Source of the DNA: Bolinopsis microptera
Taxonomy: Eukaryota; Ctenophora; Tentaculata; Lobata; Bolinopsidae
Reading direction: 5' to 3'
DNA length: 64,000 bases
NCBI RefSeq assembly: GCF_026151205.1
Contig: NC_087072.1
Span: 9,545,669-9,609,668, forward strand
Shown: one piece after another, positions 34,741 to 55,633 of the stretch
How positions within the stretch are numbered: the first letter of the stretch is position 1
Layout: every line of letters starts with the position of its first letter
Made by a program: the position numbers and the translations under genes
The notes under the pieces: model-generated
What the model was told of the DNA's origin: nothing
The model's input: the letters and a program-made list of their open reading frames with translations, nothing else
Database searches by the model: none

Positions 34741-35320
34741 ACTTGCCTGTTATTCCCAGTTACTGACTGATAATCTTATCTGTAGATACCATGCTTGAAT
34801 TTAGGTAAACAACATAGCACTTCCTCACCAGTCACGTTGAACGCGATCGCCGAATGATAAAACAATATGGGAACGCGCGCGCACAGCATTGCGCGCTGAT
34901 ACTCTAAATACTGTGCGCGTTTCGTCCGGAACCTGGGGGAGTTCCCGCTCTAATATATCTGACGACAGTGATCACTCATTATGAGAACTAATCCCGACCA
35001 CTTTCCCGGTCGAACCGTACCCAAATCAAACTAACTTATGAACCACGTGTATAGCCAACGTCCTTGCGGTGCTGAGCCGATGTAAAACTCTTCTGTCTCT
35101 TGTTAATATTTTAGTTGTACTGTGCATAAAAGTGTGTAGTGACAAGTGTGTAGTGGTAATGTATATTATTTATTATGACGACGCGATATTTATAATGCAG
35201 AATTAAAAGCTGCTTTCGATATGACTGGTGGTGGGCTCTCTCCGGCGGGACATAGATCTATATGGACACGTTCATTTGAGTTTGAGGATATTGGTAAATA
35301 TAAGTGACCCTATTAAAAGG
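34741..35320. other. Region between the LINE nest and the GTCACA repeat block
   Basis: Includes a GC-richer patch with GCGCGCGC words at 34870-34920. Part may be the 3' UTR of LINE copy 1. No gene was seen. Confidence 0.3.
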
Positions 35321-38556: not shown

Positions 38557-38590
38557 GTATTAGAATTAGAATTAGAATTAGAATCAAATT
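38557..38590 (-). repeat. (TTCTAA)n 3' tail of the AlkB LINE
   Basis: About four to five units of ATTAGA on the plus strand, placed 430 bp past the ORF2 stop. Microsatellite tails are characteristic of CR1/L2-type LINE 3' ends. Confidence 0.7.
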
Positions 38591-39021
38591 TACACAGCAA
38601 TACAATAAGAATAAAAAATAATTTAAGAAGCTTCAATCTGCTGTGCAGGACATTCAAGTCAGTCAAAAACTGTTAGCAGAACACCCTTCTAGGGACATAA
38701 GGATATAGCATGTAAATTGTAAAACAAAATAAGTAATAAATTAATGAGTGGTAAAATAAGATATGATTTAACAGTGAACTGTGGGCATGAAGGTAACAAT
38801 TAATGTTGAAAATTACATTGATGCCCACTTTGGAATTTCGTAAGTAATATTATTTACAGTTATACACAGAGAAGTATAGAACAACATTAGAATGGCAATG
38901 ATAACAAATGGGAACGAATAAAGGAGATGTTTAAAGTTCTATACTTCTGAAAATAGGTCATATAACGCAGGGGGCCTTTCCACCCGACAAAACTCCAGCA
39001 CCTTAAAAATTGTTTCAGTTG

Positions 39022-42000
39022 TCACATAGCTAGAGTGTAGAAATAGTCGAAACTATTGTTTATTTCATAGGATGAGACTCCTTGAATTACATCTGACATA
39101 AATTTAGATTTCATACATTGTGAGAAATTTACACTACATTCTATAGTCCTTATGTTCTCTGGAATTGTATTCCAACATTTTGCACCTAAATATGTAAAGG
39201 TTTTGTGTGTTCTGGATTTGTGAATATAAAGGTTGCACCTCTCAGCATCACGTGATCCTCCGGATACATAAGAAAATTTACCGGTGAATGATGATGGTGC
39301 AGCCTCATTAAGAATTTTATACATATACGTTGATATATACGTTAAGACGGAGTTGTCGTCTTAAGTGTAAGGGTAAACACTTCATATTTCGATATACATT
39401 TACTGATGGTTCCTGCCAATGAACATCCAGTGCAATTTTTGCTACTTTCTTGTATAATATATCAAGAGAATTAAGTCTGGTTTTGGCAGCCCTACACCAT
39501 ATTATATCCAGGTAGTCAAATTGGGGGAGCATAAGAGCATTTACAAACATTTTTCTATATTTCAGTGGAAGAAGATTTTTCGACCTGTATAATGCCCCTA
39601 TTCTTTTAGCAATTTTTGATTTCACATAATCAATATGGTCTTGAAAGTTCAATAAATTGTCTATCATGAGACCTAAATATTTTTGAGATTTAGTTTCTTC
39701 TATAAAAAGGCATTCTTTTTCCAAATCCAGAGGGATTGACAACGTGTCCAGATTAGGATATCTATCAAATACAATGAATGAAGATTTTGCAGCATTTAGT
39801 CTCAGCTTGTTGATTCTAAGCCATTCATACACAATTTTCATATCCTTAATTACATTTTCATATATGCTTCGGGAAATGTTATCAAAATATAGTGCACTGT
39901 CATCTGCAAATAAGTAAACAGTAGATTGTGTGCAATTTCTACTGAGATCATTTATGAATAAACTAAATAGAATTGGTCCTAATATGCTACCCTGTGGCAC
40001 ACCTGTTTTAACAGGGAGTGATGTGCTTACATTACCACGTATTTTGGTGTGCTGCTTTCTGTCCCCAAGGTAGCTTTTGAACCACTTTATGACAAAGCCA
40101 TCAACTCCATAATACTTAAGTTTTTTCAATAAAATATTATGGCTTACTGTGTCAAAGGCCTTTTTAATATCTAAGAATACAATTGCAGGTTTCTTCTGTG
40201 ATTCCTTAGACGTAAATATTTTATCAAATAGATTAAGCATTAGAAAAGTGGTGGAATGATCTTTTCTAAATCCATACTGATTGTTGGTAAGTAGTTTATT
40301 TGTTTCAACATACTCTGTGAGCTGTTGGTTAACAAAATATTCTATGCATTTTCCAAGTAGGGGGAGTATGGATATTGGCCGGTAGTTATTTGGATCATTA
40401 GGGTCACCAGTTTTAAGAATTGGAGTGACTGATGCAATTTTACATGCCAACGGCATTGTTCCACTTTTCATACTAAGGTTTATAATATGAGCTACTGGAT
40501 CGATGATTTGGGGAATAATATACTTATATACTTTAATAGGCATGATATCGTTGATAGATTTATCTGATGGTATACTGAGTATATATTCTTTTACTTGTTC
40601 AACAGTCACCTCTTCGAATACAGAGAGTTTACACTCTGGTGGAGGCGGCATATATTCTAGAAAGTCGTCTGAATCCTTTTCCTTAATTGATTCTTGTAAT
40701 ATTGTACCAACTGTGGCAAAATGCAGGTTAACTCCGTTAACATTTAAGTTGCTTGGGGAAGAGCTACTTATTTTTCCAGGTAAGTTTGAAGCATGTTTGA
40801 TAGTTTTCCAAATACCTTTCAAATCGTTTTTTGCACTTTTCACAGTAAGGTCCTGAACAATATTTGTACGTCTGTTTTCTTTGGATAATTTTGTCACATA
40901 GTTTCTTTGGGGACGATAGTTATCCCACGAAGTAGAGCATTTCTTATGTAGTTCACTTTTTCTGCAGTTACATATTCCATTAATACACTTACACTTGAAT
41001 TTGTTTAATTGTCCTAAACACTTTTTATACTTTCTGAAAAGCATCTTCTTCTTCCGTATTTCTGCCAACAGTACTTTAGAGGGATTACAAAGAAAGTTAC
41101 TATTACATTTAATCTGTTTAGGTGGACAGTAATTATCATACGATTCCTGGATGTGATGATTAAGTCCATCTAGCGCATGGTCTACATTAGTACAGCTTAG
41201 AATATTACTGTAGTTACTGCAGGATCCCAGAAAATAGCTTAAGGCTTTTAGATTGTTTAAGGAGTGGTCTCTGATAAGGACCTTCTGGAACTTACTAGCT
41301 TTATTTACTTTAAAGTCGAGAACACATTTAAGAGCTTGGTGATCTCCTATTCTATCATCAAGTACTTTACACTCTATGAAATTAGAGTAACAGTTAGTCA
41401 TTACAACATCTATTGTGCTCTGCGTTATTCTACCATCTAAGTTTGCAATACAGACTGTTACTCCTGTAACAGTCTGTATCATTCCAAAGAGCTTCATTGT
41501 TATATCTAACTTTTTATAGTCTAGATCAGATAAAGAGTTTTGGTTAACATTAACATCGCCAATCCATATTACTTTCTTACCTTGAAGTTTCATCATACAT
41601 TCAGTCATATAATCAAGGAAAGTATCTAGATGACAAAAGTTTTGTGATCTGTAGAAGCAGCAAATGTAAAGATTGGCGTCCTTGAGTTGTATCCATATAG
41701 CTTCGATTTTAGAAATATCAGAGTAGGTTATATCTAAATTGAGTAATTTGTGGTTAACATTTTGGTTGATCAATATACCACACCCTCCTCTTCCTCTATC
41801 GTTAGGTCTATCACACCTTATAAAATCAAAGTTTAAGGGGAAGTTAAGTGTACTAGTGTCTATATCAGATTTAAGGTTTGTCTCATTAATTCCAATTATG
41901 TCAAGCTTTTCGCGAAATATTAGCTCCTGTAGTTCGAAAGTTTTTGCCAGATTAGTCAGGCCACCCTGTATATTACATAGACCAAGAGAGAGATTATCGT

Positions 42001-42031
42001 TTATTGAGGTACGAATAAGGTTAAACCAAAG
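39022..42031 (-). CDS. ORF2 of the AlkB LINE: endonuclease + reverse transcriptase
   Basis: The frame is open from 42031, after a TAG at 42032-42034, to 39317. APE-type endonuclease comes first (LGLCNIQGGL, IIGINETNLKSD, RCDRPNDRGRGGCGILI, VIWIGDVNVN, IGDHQALKCVLDF). A Cys-rich linker follows (CKCINGICNCRKSEL), then RT motifs NYRPISILPLLGKCIEY, FLDIKKAFDTVSH, TGVPQGSILGPILF and catalytic FADD, and YLGLMIDNLLNFQDH. The C-terminal ~100 residues are in another frame (39324-39022), so one frameshift has occurred near 39320. No AUG is evident near the 5' border. Coordinates run from the first sense codon to the final stop. Confidence 0.85.
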
Positions 42032-42322
42032 CTAATGGGGAACAAATCCACATGCAGTCTCCTCAAGTAGACTAAGTTTCAAATCATGTCATACATATGA
42101 TTTAAATTGGATTTCGGATCAGCAATCATACTGCAGTTTAAATCATAAAGTTTAACAGCATAAAATAGTAACTCACTTCTGTTTGTGATAAATATAGCTT
42201 GAGAGATATAAAAACGTTAAGTTATTAGAAATTTGTGCTGATCTAACATTTTAAACCAGATAAAACAGTAATCCTGTTATTATTCATGTTGATACCCTTG
42301 GATTATAGAATTTTAATGAAGT

Positions 42323-42843
42323 TTAACACAAGTGAGTTACATATTTGAGATGCTTACCAAGCCTGGCAATTCCTAACTTATTAAGGTGCACATTGTCATG
42401 GCCCCTGCCAAAATACTTGTCCTTTCTATTATAATTTAAAGTAAAGAGATTATTTTCATGTTCTGTGTTAATGTATATTAGCCCATGCTTATAACACATA
42501 TTCTCTAAGTATCGATTAAGTCCCTGCACTATGATGTTCTTACTAGTGACAGCTCTAGGCAGAATATTTAAGATATATATTTTTGCACTATTAAATTCTG
42601 CCCACAATTTTTGAACAAATTCTTCCATGTCATTGGTGGCACTGTTGAAGTTCATTGTGTTGAGGTCAATTGGATCAACACAGTTAGTACCAGTTAGTAA
42701 AACAACCTTTTTAACCTTTTCTTTGTTGAGAACTTTGAACTGACTGTCGCTAAAGAGTCTTTGGGACATTTGGATTGAGTTGGCCCCTGGGTAGAAGAAT
42801 ACTTTGGCCTTCTGAGATGAAGAGCTCAACAGTTTTTCATTCA
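42323..42843 (-). CDS. ORF1 of the AlkB LINE, C-terminal SGNH hydrolase part
   Basis: About 170 residues of an SGNH/GDSL hydrolase fold. Block II is FFYPGANS, block III is VLLTGTN, and block V DNVH (in GRGHDNVHLNKLGIARL) supplies the Asp-His pair. Block I with the serine should lie at the insertion point: ISYIHVTWRDLHP on the other side of the RTE. SGNH or esterase domains in ORF1 are known for CR1/L2 elements. The frame is broken only by the RTE insertion at about 42844. Stop at 42323-42325. Confidence 0.75.
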
Positions 42844-44990
42844 GATGCCTAAACATGCTGCTGCTGATATGATAGAAGAACAATGGAAGAAATTGAGAGA
42901 CATTATAACTGATATCTCGTTTGAAGTTCTGGGTGAAAGGGGCCGGAAAAAGAGAACAGAACATCTCTCAAAGGATACTAAGAATCTCCTAAAAGAACGA
43001 GGTGAGATTAAAAAGAAACCTAGTACTGCTGAGAATCGTGCTAAGTACTCGCAGATTAACGGTCTTGTTAGGCAGAACTGTAAAAGAGATGATAATGCCT
43101 GGGCTGTTAGAGTAGCTGAGGAATTGGAAGAGGCTGCCAAGCAGGGTCAACAAAGAGATGTTTGGCAGAAAATAAAATCCCTTACAAACAAGAGAGTAAA
43201 CAGATCTGCGGCAGTGCGGGATAAGAATGGGACACTTATATCAGATCCCGAAGCTCAGTCACATCGCTGGGCCGAATATTTTGAAGAACTCTTAACGCCA
43301 GCAGCAGATGCGGTGGATTTCTCTCTATTGGATGAGGACGAAAAGGTACTTTCTTTTGAATATCTTAGTAATGATGATGAGCCACCGTCCTTGTTTGAAA
43401 TTGAGGAAGCTATCAAGAAGTTGAAGAACTACAAAAGTGCTGGAATTGATGAAATTTCAAATGAGCAGTTAAAGTACGGTTCTCCTGGACTTCTGCCTTG
43501 GTTAAAAGATTTGTTTGAAACTGTATGGAAAAGTGAGGATATTCCTAGTGATTGGAGGAAAGGAATCATCACCATCATCCCAAAGAAAGGGGACCTCACA
43601 TATTGCAACAACAACAGAGGGATAACTCTACGCTCCACAGTATCGAAGTTATTTCAAATCGTGTTGTTAAAAAGACTAAGTAATGGGCTTGAAAAGTTAC
43701 TTAGAGAAAATCAGTGTGGTTTCAGGAGAAACCGTTCTTGTATAGATCAGCTATACTCCCTTAATTGTATAATACACAATTGTATAGAATTCAACGTCCC
43801 TTTGTATATAAACTTTATTGATTTTAAAGCTGCTTTTGATTCAATCAATCGTGACTTTATTTGGAAAGCTTTTGAACATTATGGTCTTCCAACAAAATAC
43901 ATCAATGTTTTCAAAGCGTTCTTTAGAGCAACTGAAAGTGCAGTTCGTGTCAATGGGGAATTGACAAGATGGTTTGATGTCGATTCGGGGACTGGACAAG
44001 GTGATGTGCAAGGGCCCCCCATTTTCAACCTTGTACTTAACTGGGGATTAGAACTTGCCGAGAAGTTTAAAAATATATCGCGTGGTTTTACTCTTCAGTA
44101 CAGACAAAGTTCCAGACAACCGGAAAAATGTGTCATTGATTTGGACTATGCTGATGACATAGCAGGCATGGATGACACTGTCGAGGGACTGCAAGAAACA
44201 ACGGACAATATTGCGAAATACTGTGGGCTTGGGGGTTTAAAGATGAACGCAAAGAAAACAGAGATCATGGTAATTGGGAAAGATACGTCGCAGCACCCAC
44301 TCCCAGAGAATAGGACCATAGATATTACTGTCGATGGAAACTCTGCAAAGCAGGTCACTCAATTCACTTATTTGGGTGCCAAAATTACATCGGATGGCAA
44401 GATCGATAAAGAAATAAGTGTCAGGATTGGAAAAGCAACCGGAGCTTTTAACCAACTCAATAACATTTGGAAGAATAAGAACATAAGCATTAACAACAAA
44501 GTGCGAATCTACATCGCAGCTGTTCTTACCATTCTGACCTATGGAAGTGAGATATGGAACACGACTCAAGTGCAGACAAGAAGATTAGAGTCTTTCCATC
44601 AGTACTGCTTACGCAGAATCCTGAGAGTGAGGTGGTTCCATCGAGTAAGAAATGAAGATGTTTTAAGAAGGGCTTCAATAACTGCTCTTACTGACATAAT
44701 AGCAACAAAACGGCTACGTTGGTTTGGACATGTCAGTAGAATGCCTGAAGATCGGTTACCTAACTATCTACTTGAATGGAAACCCAAGCATGGGAAACGA
44801 TCAAGAGGCAGGCCTAGGAAGAGCTTAAATGATGTATTTATTGAAGATGCTGAGCAGAGATTGGATCGTAATGGACTCACGATTGATTGTATGAGAAGAT
44901 TGGCTGCAGATCGAAAAGGATGGAGAAATATTACCCGCCGAAGTTGTATAATACAAAGTAATGACGCAGATGACGCAGACTAATCCTTTT
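42844..44990 (+). mobile_element. RTE-type LINE, 5'-truncated, intact RT ORF
   Basis: Open frame 42845-44983, 712 codons, without stops. It starts after the endonuclease (EEQWKKLRDIITDISFEVLG). RT motifs: FRRNRSCIDQLYSLNCII, FIDFKAAFDSINRDFIW, GTGQGDVQGPPIFNLVLNW and catalytic YADD, then TYLGAKITSDG. A C-terminal segment is typical of RTE-like proteins (LTYGSEIWNTT, RLRWFGHVSRMPEDRLPNYL). Inserted antisense into ORF1 of the AlkB LINE, so it is younger than that element. The intact frame suggests recent activity. Confidence 0.88.
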
Positions 44991-46387
44991 GGATGGAGAT
45001 CTCGCCATGTAACATGTATGTAGCTGATATAAACTGTGCTCACATCGTTGGGTGTCTCCTTTTCGAACAATTGTTGTCTGTTAACATGCCGCCCTGATTG
45101 ATGCAGATGGGGTGGTGGAGATGTATAGGGTGGGGTTAGAGGTCGGTGCTGATAAGCACCATTCGTTTTCCTTGATGGATGAACTATAAACTCGTCTTCT
45201 TGATAAGGTACATAGCCGCTGGAGTTGGAGATGTTTTCATATGGGTCATGGTAATTGTCATTGCACATGTTGGTTGGTGTACTTGTTAATCTTTGGACAA
45301 CAGCTACAGGTTTGATCAGTCTGAATGTGATACTGATCCTTTTGTTTGTACAAGATGGTTGAGTACAGATTTCATGTCTGTAATGAAGCTGGGATTTTTT
45401 AGACATGATACAAACATCCCCATGCTTTAGATCTAGGGCAGACACCACTTTTCCTGTTTGAATTTCTGTGAACTGCATCGTCCTAGAGGCACCCAGAGAA
45501 ACTGTAACAATATAAGAGTTTTCATCGATGCATTCTTCATTATCACTATGGATAGGCATGCATTCTGTCCCAGTACAGCTGTAGTAGTTTACGAGAGCAC
45601 TGTTGTAAACATAATCCGGGAGTAACACATCAAGATATGAACAGATAGCAGCCAGATAGGACTGATGTGGTATCTCCTTCGCCTCGTGACTTCCCCCATT
45701 ATACACATATGGGAAGTCCCCAAAGTAAGCTGTTTTCCTATTTTGAAACTGGTGGCTAAAATCCAATTCTCTCAGGAAGATGTCTAAGGAGAATTTTTGA
45801 AACGGTGCCTGATCAATGAGTTCAACAGGTGGTATGATAATGTCAGGGCTTTCATCATTTACACTTAAGGCCACACTAGATATGGGTGTTACATCTATTT
45901 CAGCATAATACTTGCCACTCCATGGATTGACAGATCCTGTACTCCCACTGATTTGATTTTCTGTGTTGTTGGAAATGATAGAATCTGGTGCTTCAATGAT
46001 GCCATCACTATTGATTAGCATGAAAGATTCAGGCACCTCGCATTCACTGTCATATTCAATCTGATCGTTTTCAAATTCTGTCTGAACTGCAACATCTGAA
46101 CACCTATCCAGGACAGCCCGATAATCTATTGACTGATTGGTACTTTGATGTAACAACGTACCATTAATCTCTGCTATAGTCTGAGAAGTTTGAACAATGT
46201 CTTCTAGGATGATCACTTTCCGCTCGAGAAACTTGACATGAGATTTGAATGCAGTACAGTTTTTGCATTTTTGATCACATTCCGACAATAGTTTTCCAAA
46301 AAATGTTTCCATTGAATCGTCCATGATATTGAGTTGATGATTTGAATTAAGTTGTTGATTTGAATTGAAGCAAATTGAAGAGTTCAC
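44991..46387 (-). CDS. ORF1 of the AlkB LINE, N-terminal part with AlkB-like dioxygenase
   Basis: About 465 residues before the RTE insertion. Residues ~26-95 are Cys-containing with a predicted coiled coil (HVKFLERKVIILEDIVQTSQ), as in LINE ORF1 proteins that multimerise. Residues ~210-360 match the AlkB family of Fe(II)/2-oxoglutarate dioxygenases. NYY at 267-269 fits the N-x-Y motif. The iron facial triad is H280, D282 (HSDNEE) and H338 (YRHEI). R350 and R356 form the RISITFR (R-x5-R) motif that binds 2-oxoglutarate and substrate. A proline-rich linker follows (RPLTPPYTSPPP). All catalytic residues are present. By family, it would oxidatively demethylate N-alkylated nucleic acid; any role for the LINE RNA is inference. 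Start may be M1 or M22 (MDDSMETFF). Confidence 0.82.
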
Positions 46388-46489
46388 ATGTGAGATTTGT
46401 TCCTTTCCATTAACGTTACATTCGTATTACATTCGTATTACTCAATAAATGTAATAGATTTGTAGTGTTGTAATTAGTTTAAAACTATA

Positions 46490-47390
46490 TAGATCTTCAA
46501 AATAGGGGCAAGACATGTTTACTTTGTCACATCAGTTATTATTACAGTTAGGTAATCGTCATCACATTAACATATATTTTTTTGTAGTTTGGATTGATTT
46601 ATTTAGGTAATAAGCAGGTGATAAGGCAGCCTATGCTAATTTTTACACACTATCTTGAAATTGTTGGGGCAGGAAAAGTTAATTTTGTCACATTTTTAGT
46701 GACTTTGACAAATTTAACCTAAAATTGTTAAACTTGAGCTCTGATGTTCTGGACAATATTCTACCAATTTTTTCTGAAAGAATGTTAAATTCTAATAGAG
46801 TTATAGAATATATAGATCTTCAAAATAGGGGCAAGACATGTTTACTTTGTCACATCAGTTATTATAAGAGTTATTACTTATTATAAGAGACTATTTCATT
46901 ATATAATCATTGTTACGATTTCGTATAATTTTTTGTGACAATGTAAACATCAACTGATCTTAACTTGCATCAACTACATTGTCATCATGTAAAGTTTTCC
47001 CGCCTTTCAAACCAAAATCAGATATAAATAATTCGCCCAAAATTTTAAATTCCATATATTGTGACAGAATTAACCTCATTGTGCCTGTATTAGCTTACTA
47101 TTCAAAGCAACATATTTTAGGGCTATGATTGGTACTCCGTACTTGGTAGATCAACCATCAAATAATGAGTAAAAAGGGTTTTGAGGACACCTCACAGTAG
47201 AATAGAGGTATGGTATTCTGAGTGTGACAAAGTTACCTAAATATTGCCTTGTAACCGTTCGATCCGTGCCCTTTAACCAATGTTGTATCATAATTGTTAG
47301 ATTGACCTAATCTACTATGTTTCAGACCAAGGAATGATAATTAGACAACTGCAGTTAAATAAGTCACACAAAATGTGACATTTGAACCAT
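46490..47390. repeat. Degenerate repeat block with TTTACTTTGTCACA word (right part)
   Basis: A 55-60-bp segment (TAGATCTTCAAAATAGGGGC...GTCACATCAGTTATTA) occurs twice in direct orientation, at about 46490-46545 and 46810-46865. Further word copies lie at 46678 (plus) and at about 46932, 47059 and 47223 (inverted). Flanking words match the left block at 35.3-35.8 kb. Confidence 0.65.
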
Positions 47391-47636
47391 TATAGTGCCT
47401 AACAACAATAGATTTTCTTTCTGAGCAGTGCATATGGGAGTATGGGTTACGCGGCTAATGTTCAGAACTTCTGAACGTGCTAGGTTAATAGATGTCAAAA
47501 TTAAGCCACTATCGTCAAAAACGCTATTATTTTTGTTTACCAATATCCTCAAACTCAAATGAACGTGTCCATATATGGGGTACCCGGGGTACGAGTTAAC
47601 GAACAGTGTTCGTGTCCTTCCACAACCCCCTGTTAC
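47391..47636. other. Unassigned sequence
   Basis: No gene or repeat was recognised, apart from a TACCCGGGGTA palindrome near 47580. Confidence 0.3.
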
Positions 47637-52830: not shown

Positions 52831-53631
52831 GAATTTAGGACCACAATAATCAGGGCCAGGATACGAGCTTTTTGGGGTTTAAGCTCTTGAGGGTTTCAGT
52901 AATCTGGCAGTTCTTGCTTTATTTGTTTTCTTCCTTTTTAAGAACAACTTCATGGAGAATGAAATTTCATTTCAACTGCTAAGCTCTTTTTCTGATTTTT
53001 GGTTACTTTTAGAATTAACGTAGCTCAGAAAATATTATGTACATTTATTTTCATATTTCGTATTTGTTTTTTATTTAATTGTTCTGTATAATTTGAATCT
53101 TGAACTTAAATCTGTGATGGGCACATAGCTATACAACTAAGATTTTGCTTTAGATATTCAAGATTTTATGATATCACAACAACAGTATCTACTATCAATA
53201 GAGATCGGTTTGTTGTATCAATGAGTAAAATTGACTCAGTTGATAAAGATTCCTTTAATTAATCTAGTAGTTCTAGAAAGTTTAGATTTTAGTGTCTTTG
53301 GTAGCATGCAATCATATTGAACAGCTTGTAGCTGTTATACCTTAAAACAGAATGTGTCCCGGAATGTATGTGTTATTATATTTTTACAATGCAATTTAAC
53401 AATTCTTATTTCATTAAATATATTTTCATTTCAGTATCAAATTGTTTGTTTTATTTACAGTGACGTGTAAATGACTTTGAAAACAATTGTAATAAATGTA
53501 TTACCATGTCTAACTTGCATCAAAGATTGATTCATATTCTGATGTTGGTCCAAAAATGAGCTGTAATTATACAATTATTGGCATGTATTTCTTAACTAAC
53601 CAACAATCCCGACAGGTGTATAGATAGTATC
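52831..53631. other. Intergenic region, coiled-coil gene to RINT1
   Basis: About 800 bp of AT-rich sequence. It holds the 3' UTR of the small gene (AATAAA-like sites) and the RINT1 5' region. CCCGACAG ends 16 nt before the RINT1 ATG. Confidence 0.4.
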
Positions 53632-55633
53632 ATGAACGAAGAGGAAGCTTTATATCTTGATCAGCTGACCTCAATCTCCGACGTTCCAGCCTCCCTGCAA
53701 CACTTCCACAACGATTACGAAGATGCCAAAGCGAAGCTGAGTGTCGTTGCTACAGATACGGCGGCAGTGCACAGAACGCACAAAACAAAGTTACACAAAG
53801 ATATCAGAGAAGCAAGGAAGTACATAAGGCTAGGCGAGGACTTGGTGGAGAGTACTGATGCAGTCCGCCAGACACCCAGCGAGGAGCTTCTCGGCAAACT
53901 GGCTGCTGTCGATCAATTCAGTAAGATTGCTAAATATCTTGACTGGGTCAAGTTCCTGAACGAAGCTGTAAACTTTTTAGATAAGCGACAAAACAAGGAG
54001 AGCTGGAAGAAGTGTCTCCCGATATATGATGAGTTGAATTGTTATTCTAGTCTTGTGGAGGACACTGCATGTGCTAATCTGAAGCGGGTTATGGTAGCAG
54101 AGTGTCGGAAAAGATACAAGATACTTACTGAGATGGCTTTGAAATCATTCGGTCCAGTGAATTGGAAAAATATAAACCAGGAAACTATTCCTGGTATTTT
54201 AGAGAATGTGAAATTCCTGTTTAAATTATCAGAACCGTTATGTCATGGGAAACCCAATCTGAAACTGGGCTTAAAATACATTTTCAGCCACTTTGAGCTG
54301 CAGTTTAAGTTTCACTTCATGAGAAAAGTCAAGACAAACGACATCAAGAAACCTGAGTGGTACTTTACAAAACTGCTGTCCTGGATACGCGAGTTCAAGG
54401 ACAAGTTCCAAACACACTTCGGTGTTTTGTTTGAGAACGAAAATAATGCAACTATCACAGCTCTGTTTGTGGAACACTATTGTGAGTTTGCTGTACTGAA
54501 ACTCAATGAAGATATCCCTAAACTGGATGATGGATTGTTCACTCATTACATTGACGAAGTCATCAAATTCCACAAAGAGCTCAAGGACCACATCCCTCTT
54601 TCCCATTTTAAGTCTCCAATACTGAACCTCTTCACAGAAGAAAAGACTTTAAACAGGTGGTTACAATTGGAGACAATATCCTCCTTCAAATTTCTCACAA
54701 ATGTGGAGGCAGATGAACATTGTTTCGAAGAGAGGGAGAGTGGTAGTGGGTATCCAATACCCTCCATGTGCGTCAGAGTGTTGACATCGGTGAAGGCTGT
54801 AGGAGAAAGAGTAAAAGTGTTCCCATCTCTAGCTCTCAACAATTCATTCTACTCCCTCCAATGTGATCTCTTGAAAGAGTTCATGATTCATTTATCAGAC
54901 AAGTTACAAAAGTTGGACCCACAAAGACCCCAAGTTTTACCTGGTAGTAAATAGCGTGGTGTACATTTTGGCGATCCTAGAGGAATGGAGCTACGATCAG
55001 CATTACATCAAGGTATCCAAGTTCGAGGGTGACAAGGCTCCCTTTTCTCACATCAGCGATTCCTATGAACTTCTTCAACAAGATTTACAGGACTCCCTAG
55101 AATCCTCTATATCGAGTAAAGTGAACAGTTTGCTTAGCGGATACTTCAAGAAAAACTGGATGCTCCCCAATAAACTGGATACTATAACTCCTTCCTGCTC
55201 AGCTGGACTTATGGAGTTACAACAGTCTCTAGCAAGTCTATCTGCCTCTCTTGCGCCTGATAACTTCCTTAATATCTGGAGTAACCTTGCCAGCTCTTTA
55301 CAGCTGACCTTTACTAACAAGATCCTCTTCAAATCACAGTTTAATATAGCGGGAGCTCAACAGTTCAAACAAAAAATTTATTTTTTGGGGGGGGGGGGGG
55401 GGGAACCCATGGCAGCGTTTTGTGGAATATTTTATGAGTATTGCTCTCCGAGTTACTTTGCGAGGCTGAACAGTAATTTAGAAGTTTTGACACTGCCGTG
55501 TGAGACTGCCAGATTGTGGAAGGGTGAGGGGACGACTAGTTTAGACAATCTCACAGATCTTTTGCAGGAGCGAAATATAGTTCTGCCAACCTCTGACGTT
55601 TTAAAGATTTTGAAGCTCAGATCAGACATTTAA
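53632..55633 (+). CDS. RINT1: RINT1 (RAD50 interactor 1 / Tip20 family), one frameshift
   Basis: Frame 1 (53632-54951) gives 440 residues matching the N-terminal and central RINT1/Tip20 region: helical tether repeats, FHFMRKVKTNDIKKPEWYFT, LLSWIREF, then PSLALNNSFYSLQCDLLKEF. The protein continues in another frame (to 55633) with VVYILAILEEWSYDQHYIKV, which aligns to the family's next block (YISTVLADW). The two frames overlap around 54915-54955, so a single-base indel is implied. A T6-G17 run at 55381-55403 interrupts a conserved segment (SQFNIAGAQQFK, then AAFCGIFYEYCSPSYFARL). RINT1 is a subunit of the NRZ (Dsl1-like) complex tethering Golgi-to-ER vesicles. As it is normally essential, the breaks are more likely sequence errors than gene loss. 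Confidence 0.85.
55381..55403 (+). repeat. T6-G17 homopolymer inside RINT1
   Basis: A run of six T and 17 G inside the C-terminal coding part. It encodes poly-Gly in frame and is not expected in the family. Possibly an assembly artefact or an expanded G tract. Confidence 0.85.

Follow-up and report, generated by a model that had tools for sequence, protein, structure and literature searches.

A complete AlkB-type dioxygenase domain in ORF1 of LINE elements of the ctenophore Bolinopsis microptera

The window analysed here, a stretch of 64,000 nucleotides of contig NC_087072.1 of Bolinopsis microptera (assembly GCF_026151205.1, positions 9,545,669 to 9,609,668 of the forward strand), contains a nearly full-length copy of a LINE element (Table 1). 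This copy was compared by blastn with the full-length copy L138, in which the element begins at position 1154, as judged from the sequence shared between copies. The identity is 99.2% over 46442-45023 and 97.5% over 42868-38559. The 5' end of the window copy is about 50 bp shorter than that of L138, and its 3' end is an (ATTCTA)n tail. Downstream of ORF1 and on the same strand, as the initial annotation had read it, ORF2 encodes an endonuclease and a reverse transcriptase, with Pfam matches to Exo_endo_phos (3.4e-5, just under the cut-off) and RVT_1 (1e-39). The open frame of ORF2 stops at 39317, the aligned coding sequence extends to about 39022, and a 10-bp insertion at about 39339-39348 shifts the frame. 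Because of this insertion and the ~50 bp missing at the 5' end, the window copy is not intact.

Table 1. Coordinates of the LINE element and its parts in the window, and loci of the giant AlkB frames elsewhere in the genome
Feature	Position	Strand	Basis or remark
LINE element, family A copy, nearly full length	38559..46442	-	blastn against L138
ORF1, first part: Cys motif and coiled-coil-like N-terminus, AlkB, Pro-rich linker	45023..46324	-	open frame; ends at insertion point
AlkB (2OG-Fe(II) dioxygenase) domain	45302..45835	-	Pfam core 45320-45679
ORF1, last part: putative SGNH hydrolase domain and stop	42323..42870	-	Lipase_GDSL_2 match, motifs
TSD copy 1, GCTGATAT	42863..42870	.	6-bp overlap of blastn pieces on L138
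TSD copy 2, GCTGATAT	45023..45030	.	flanks other side of insert
Younger LINE insertion, 5'-truncated	42871..45022	+	RVT_1 5.9e-27; opposite strand; 8-bp TSD
ORF2: endonuclease and reverse transcriptase	39022..42031	-	Pfam matches, alignment to L138
Giant AlkB frames	C10:16875843 (L158, L166-L168), C3:14441692, C12:8338315, C9:15868177, C12:2469580, C9:11092850

The open frame of ORF1 exists as it had been described, on the minus strand and not at the plus coordinates first given for it. Between stops it spans 46426-44825; the codon at position 46387, taken as the first in the initial annotation, is GTG, and the first ATG is found at 46324. AlkB and SGNH had been taken for separate ORFs, a view that had to be abandoned: once the younger insert is removed, both belong to one 613-aa frame starting from a methionine. 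The sequence GCTGATAT flanks the plus-strand RT insertion at either end, and the two pieces of the window copy abut on L138 with an overlap of 6 bp. In the eight uninterrupted family A copies fetched, ORF1 is open throughout, with 644-646 aa from stop to stop. ORF1 is thus one frame, since the insert is flanked by a target-site duplication, the joined halves are in frame and the uninterrupted copies show it undivided. In the younger LINE, the RT open frame (42821-44983) runs nearly to the 3' end of the insertion, and no endonuclease was found in it. The 3' end of this younger plus-strand LINE matches 13 other places in the genome (query residues 439-520).

SGNH hydrolases are characterized by four catalytic blocks. 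In the window copy, the corresponding segments read SSS (the Ser block), YPGA, GTN and DNVHLN, and 19 of the 20 elements read retain all four residues S, G, N and H, the exception being L147 with D for N. The Lipase_GDSL_2 match of this part (9e-7) scores 30 bits, where the cut-off is 32.9, and all Pfam GDSL matches of the window copy and of the other copies tested stay under the curated cut-off. Queried against PDB sequences, the SGNH part returned a single match, weak and irrelevant, and its single-sequence fold model was unusable (pLDDT 34.5). Based on the sub-threshold Pfam matches and the motif, the C-terminal part is probably an SGNH hydrolase. In the ORF1 of families A and B, a heptad-like stretch can be seen by eye; no RRM was matched in ORF1.

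The AlkB domain, proposed in the initial annotation from the letters of the sequence, was confirmed by a profile search: PF13532 matches residues 237-356 of the frame (window:44828-46387:-) with E=1e-21 and 78.5 bits, against a curated cut-off of 31.2. One copy per family gave 82.6 (A), 75.2 (B) and 66.9 bits (C). The signature residues are indeed those that had been named, N267/Y269, H280/D282, H338 and R350/R356. Numbered within the 178-aa domain, which begins at residue 185, they correspond to N83, Y85, H96, D98, H154, R166 and R172. The LINE AlkB keeps 17 of the 18 columns that are invariant across 11 bacterial and phage AlkB proteins, and N-x-Y, HxD, H and R-x5-R are intact in all 20 elements read, which had been picked by their AlkB match. 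The suggested structure check also turned out in favour of AlkB, the predicted fold being the AlkB-type double-stranded beta-helix. The alignment behind this model has a depth of 40 loci, taken from 13 viral and 80 genome loci found with five bacterial AlkBs. It is nearly certain that ORF1 carries a complete AlkB domain and that this domain is encoded by the LINE.

Among PDB entries, the nearest relatives of the LINE AlkB are ALKBH2 and ALKBH3, both by sequence and by fold. No ALKBH5 chain was matched by sequence at E 1 or better, and by fold ALKBH5 ranks far lower than ALKBH2/3 (1.8e-8 versus 2.6e-12). RNA virus polyprotein models rank among the best structural matches, and a search of viral contigs with ORF1 yielded no relative. 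In ALKBH2, a hairpin with F102 is pushed into duplex DNA; an F102A entry is present among the fold matches. This hairpin is apparently missing in the LINE AlkB of families A, B and C, as read from a region of low-identity alignment where the pLDDT is about 59. Single-stranded substrates would consequently be favoured. AlkB might instead mend alkylated target DNA or cDNA at the insertion site during target-primed reverse transcription, as ALKBH2 and ALKBH3 act on DNA according to the names of their PDB entries. We judge such a repair function very improbable, because the duplex-intercalating hairpin seems absent and because ORF1 proteins are generally RNA-binding and largely cytoplasmic.

A genome search with the ORF1 frame returned 83 rows, 13 of which cover only the part of the query that belongs to the younger insertion. 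The other 70 represent three families, A, B and C, and some fragments. The window element belongs to family A, to which B shows about 63% identity; for C, identity over the AlkB part is 49-53%. From these rows, 20 elements were fetched (8 A, 6 B and 6 C). AlkB and SGNH are open together in the ORF1 of every one of them, and the shared sequence continues into ORF2 in all 20, which were chosen for AlkB. ORF2 is open at at least 996 aa in 11 of the 20 elements; the remaining ones are frameshifted, interrupted (e.g., L135, L140, L141, L143, L147) or shorter. Over pieces longer than 240 bp, the identity to the family reference copy is 97.1-99.4% in A, 98.7-99.4% in B and 99.3-99.8% in C (element part), and therefore the three families moved recently. 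Among 13 copies, no convincing target-site duplication of the AlkB LINE was found, the best candidates measuring 5-8 bp.

The linkage also holds when read from ORF2, a check that the initial annotation had proposed. An ORF2 query gave 51 rows, 50 of which were used; they comprise only families A-C because they derive from the best 50 of 6395 candidates. Within this set, 34 rows have a match beginning at or before residue 13, and in 31 of them AlkB is found upstream on the same strand, with the AlkB ORF1 no more than 3 kb away in 30 and 5.4 kb away in one. Two further matches, beginning at residues 14 and 17, have no AlkB ORF1 upstream. In the whole set of 50 rows, some of them 5'-truncated, 39 have an AlkB ORF1 within 9 kb. 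Two of the three rows lacking AlkB have SGNH directly upstream, as expected from 5' truncation, and the third (C8:17090340) has nothing upstream among the matches listed. With SGNH as the query, all 90 frames of at least 490 aa have AlkB 130-454 bp upstream among the matches listed, as do 106 of 112 frames of all sizes, including a 551-aa and a 537-aa class. Further classes (592-610, 571, 557 and a second one of 537 aa) were found with the AlkB of the 551-aa class. Over AlkB, the 551- and 537-aa classes share 83-85% identity. An SGNH partner is missing among the matches listed at 35 of 141 AlkB loci, many of them divergent classes or short frames. The LINE status covers families A, B and C, whose RT was read. 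Neither of the two refuting conditions named in the initial annotation holds, as the profile search matches AlkB and most 5'-complete copies retain the domain. That a LINE and a host AlkB gene lie side by side merely by chance, for which nothing speaks beyond the single window locus, was rejected as scarcely conceivable: many copies have the same ORF1 in the same place, and separate ALKBH2-like (L155, 2e-52) and ALKBH3-like (L156, 7e-39) host sequences exist in the genome, elsewhere in the AlkB tree.

The dN/dS of the AlkB domain, which the initial annotation had proposed to test, is below 1. It amounts to 0.12 for A-B (bootstrap 0.06-0.23, 448 of 500 replicates with finite dS) and 0.18 for B-C (0.09-0.35), and is undefined for A-C, with an infinite dS; these are order-of-magnitude figures, because the differing fraction of synonymous sites between families (0.68-0.78) is near saturation, and the direction of the ratio is secure. 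In the count test, pN/pS is 0.28 for A-B (Fisher p 1.8e-21), 0.38 for A-C and 0.41 for B-C. That the domain is under purifying selection is nearly certain. Between A and B, identity is 68% in AlkB, 63% in the N-terminal part, 44% in the linker and 52% in SGNH. In the pairs with C, it is 55% in AlkB, 22-25% in the N-terminal part, 38-41% in SGNH and 54-55% in ORF2. Whichever two families are compared, AlkB is the best-conserved part of ORF1, and against C it is as conserved as ORF2. A host pseudogene was rejected as the identity of the AlkB ORF.

Families A and B are 98% identical in ORF2 and the 3' end, and ~70% or less on the 5' side of a sharp boundary in the gap between ORF1 and ORF2 (at about position 3437 of L138 and about position 3150 of L146, the latter on the minus strand). 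The whole 5' module with ORF1 was therefore exchanged between elements. AlkB is retained in the ORF1 modules of both A and B. A late passenger was also rejected for AlkB, given a dN/dS far below 1 and its presence in both swapped modules. Reticulate evolution of ORF1 is known from the CR1/L2 group (PMC4120745).

In a 25-row AlkB tree with the host ALKBH proteins, a comparison proposed in the initial annotation, the LINE AlkB does not group with host ALKBH2/3. A branch (93/90) separates the AlkB of the LINE, of the 551-aa class, of three frames of unread element type and of Helitrons from host ALKBH2/3 and human and bacterial AlkB. Branches are long, the placement of single rows is unsure, and the midpoint root serves for drawing only. 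Taken alone, the LINE label requires two changes on this tree, and one change in 26% of the bootstrap trees, in a count that labels ORF593, ORF707 and ORF222, rows of unread element type, as LINE. The simplest reading would be one AlkB lineage specific to transposable elements. A recent capture of host ALKBH2 or ALKBH3 is not supported by the tree.

The 551-, 593- and 707-aa classes (L159, L160, L161) have T or S for the N of N-x-Y and keep HxD, H and R-x5-R. Their chemistry may differ, since this N is replaced. Such a replacement would suit an AlkB kept mainly as a binding module that ties ORF1p to RNA, with catalysis secondary or lost, and so would the description of the esterase-type ORF1ps in Repbase as having no structural RNA-binding domain (PMC3905857). 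We nevertheless regard this as improbable: all 20 elements read retain the iron-ligand and 2OG-binding positions, which binding alone would not need, and even the three divergent classes retain HxD, H and R-x5-R. More multi-copy AlkB frames, whose element type is unread, have 593, 676, 692-707, 777-779 and 843-884 aa. L162, of the 843-aa class, is very divergent in the tree.

Six giant AlkB frames of 2225-3388 aa are Helitrons. In all six, Helitron_like_N (PF14214) is found 3.2-3.9 kb downstream on the same strand, at the same frame length. It was read directly in L168 (PF14214, 4e-17), beside L167; no Pfam family matched L166 or L167 at 0.01. The Helitron_like_N search of the genome lists 41 rows, most of them without AlkB. 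At C12:816078 and C10:4306526, Helitron_like_N lies ~4 kb downstream of AlkB in broken or other frames.

The elements are LINEs (APE-type non-LTR retrotransposons), having an ORF2 with endonuclease and RT and dispersed near-identical copies, and the RT of family C matches human L1 ORF2p at 2e-13. The tentative label "CR1-like" fits the 3' tails, which in all three families (13 copies) are short repeats of the CR1/L2 type instead of poly-A, (ATTCTA)n in A and B and (TTTA)n in C. ORF1 resembles the Type IV (esterase) ORF1 of CR1/L2 elements, such as zebrafish ZfL2-1, in its N-terminal part (zinc-finger/leucine-zipper or coiled-coil in Type IV, Cys-rich and heptad-like here), its poorly conserved linker, its probable C-terminal SGNH and the downstream EN-RT ORF2 (PMC3905857; PMC4120745). 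It differs in the complete AlkB between the N-terminal part and SGNH. Type IV is described as lacking any other enzymatic or structural RNA-binding domain (PMC3905857). As the AlkB domain is present, this ORF1 represents a new subtype of Type IV and not a plain member. A survey of Jockey superfamily ORF1s distinguishes types I-V, and its main text makes no mention of AlkB or oxygenase (PMC4120745).

The initial annotation knew of no earlier description of AlkB in a LINE ORF1, and none was found in the open-licence literature (titles and abstract starts), a scope outside which Repbase and subscription papers lie, so that an earlier mention is possible. Closest among known cases, Ty3/Gypsy elements of orchids have an ALKBH5-like ORF (PMC9289625), likewise a retrotransposon-borne member of the AlkB superfamily with a proposed epitranscriptomic role. 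That domain belongs to the ALKBH5 branch and forms a separate ORF of a plant LTR element, found only in Phalaenopsis in that screen, whereas the present one is ALKBH2/3-like and lies inside the ORF1 of several non-LTR families. In plant RNA viruses, AlkB is also fused to a replication protein of the parasite, a replicase in place of a LINE ORF1p (PMC544882). Compared to ALKBH2 and ALKBH3, from whose host branch it is separate, the LINE AlkB has a shorter N-terminal lid, apparently lacks the ALKBH2 hairpin and is part of a multi-domain ORF1p. As far as the open-licence literature shows, it would be the first nucleic-acid-methylation enzyme inside a LINE ORF1.

A role in packaging LINE RNA is presumed for ORF1 proteins (PMC3905857), and the ORF1p described here would coat the RNA of its own element in an RNP. 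Its AlkB could oxidatively strip RT-stopping base methylations (m1A, m3C), caused by chemical damage or by host RNA methyltransferases, and a template cleared in this way would allow ORF2 to copy a long RNA. AlkB may perhaps also provide a nucleic-acid grip in an ORF1 class otherwise without a known RNA-binding domain. It has been reported that m1A and m3C hinder reverse transcriptases, that AlkB treatment takes both off tRNA and increases the cloning of 3' tRNA fragments in OTTR, which uses an R2-type RT, and that it brings only a modest change for intact tRNA (PMC12140624). Judged from sequence, we hold it to be an evenly balanced proposition that the AlkB of ORF1p demethylates element RNA and so aids its reverse transcription.

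The marks erased could also be regulatory ones set by the host, m6A on RNA or methyl groups on DNA at the insertion site, in which case AlkB would let the element escape decay or silencing. The ALKBH5-like domain of the orchid element is an m6A demethylase in vitro (PMC9289625), and the occurrence of AlkB in Helitrons, a group of DNA transposons, speaks for a cause shared by several element classes. However, the LINE AlkB is nearest to the repair-type ALKBH2/3 and not to ALKBH5, by sequence and by fold. Moreover, m6A benefits human L1, whose transposition in human cells is suppressed by the m6A eraser ALKBH5 (PMC7873242), so demethylation need not help a LINE. Such a counter-host role seems rather unlikely to us. 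Helitrons with AlkB do not fit a purely RT-centred reason either, and another or a wider one is needed. More far-reaching, and put forward tentatively as less likely than not, is the reading that a large LINE clade has its own RNA-demethylating enzyme in ORF1p, which frees the template of RT-blocking methylation ahead of ORF2, and that its AlkB lineage, shared with Helitrons, spreads as a counter-methylation module among both RNA- and DNA-based transposons.

How esterase ORF1 proteins bind or tend RNA was left open in 2013 (PMC3905857), and a complete AlkB under selection offers a testable answer. It links retrotransposon replication with epitranscriptomics, in parallel to RNA virus replicases and the LTR element of one plant. 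Judging from the Helitrons, nucleic-acid methylation may hinder mobile DNA quite generally in this host.

Elsewhere in the window, a 65-bp direct repeat (97%) lies just upstream of the 5' end of the element, at 46486-46550 and 46809-46873. A 40-bp perfect inverted pair is found at 47536-47575 and 35259-35298, 12 kb apart. The open frames at 53596-55633 resemble exons of a COG7-type Golgi tethering gene.
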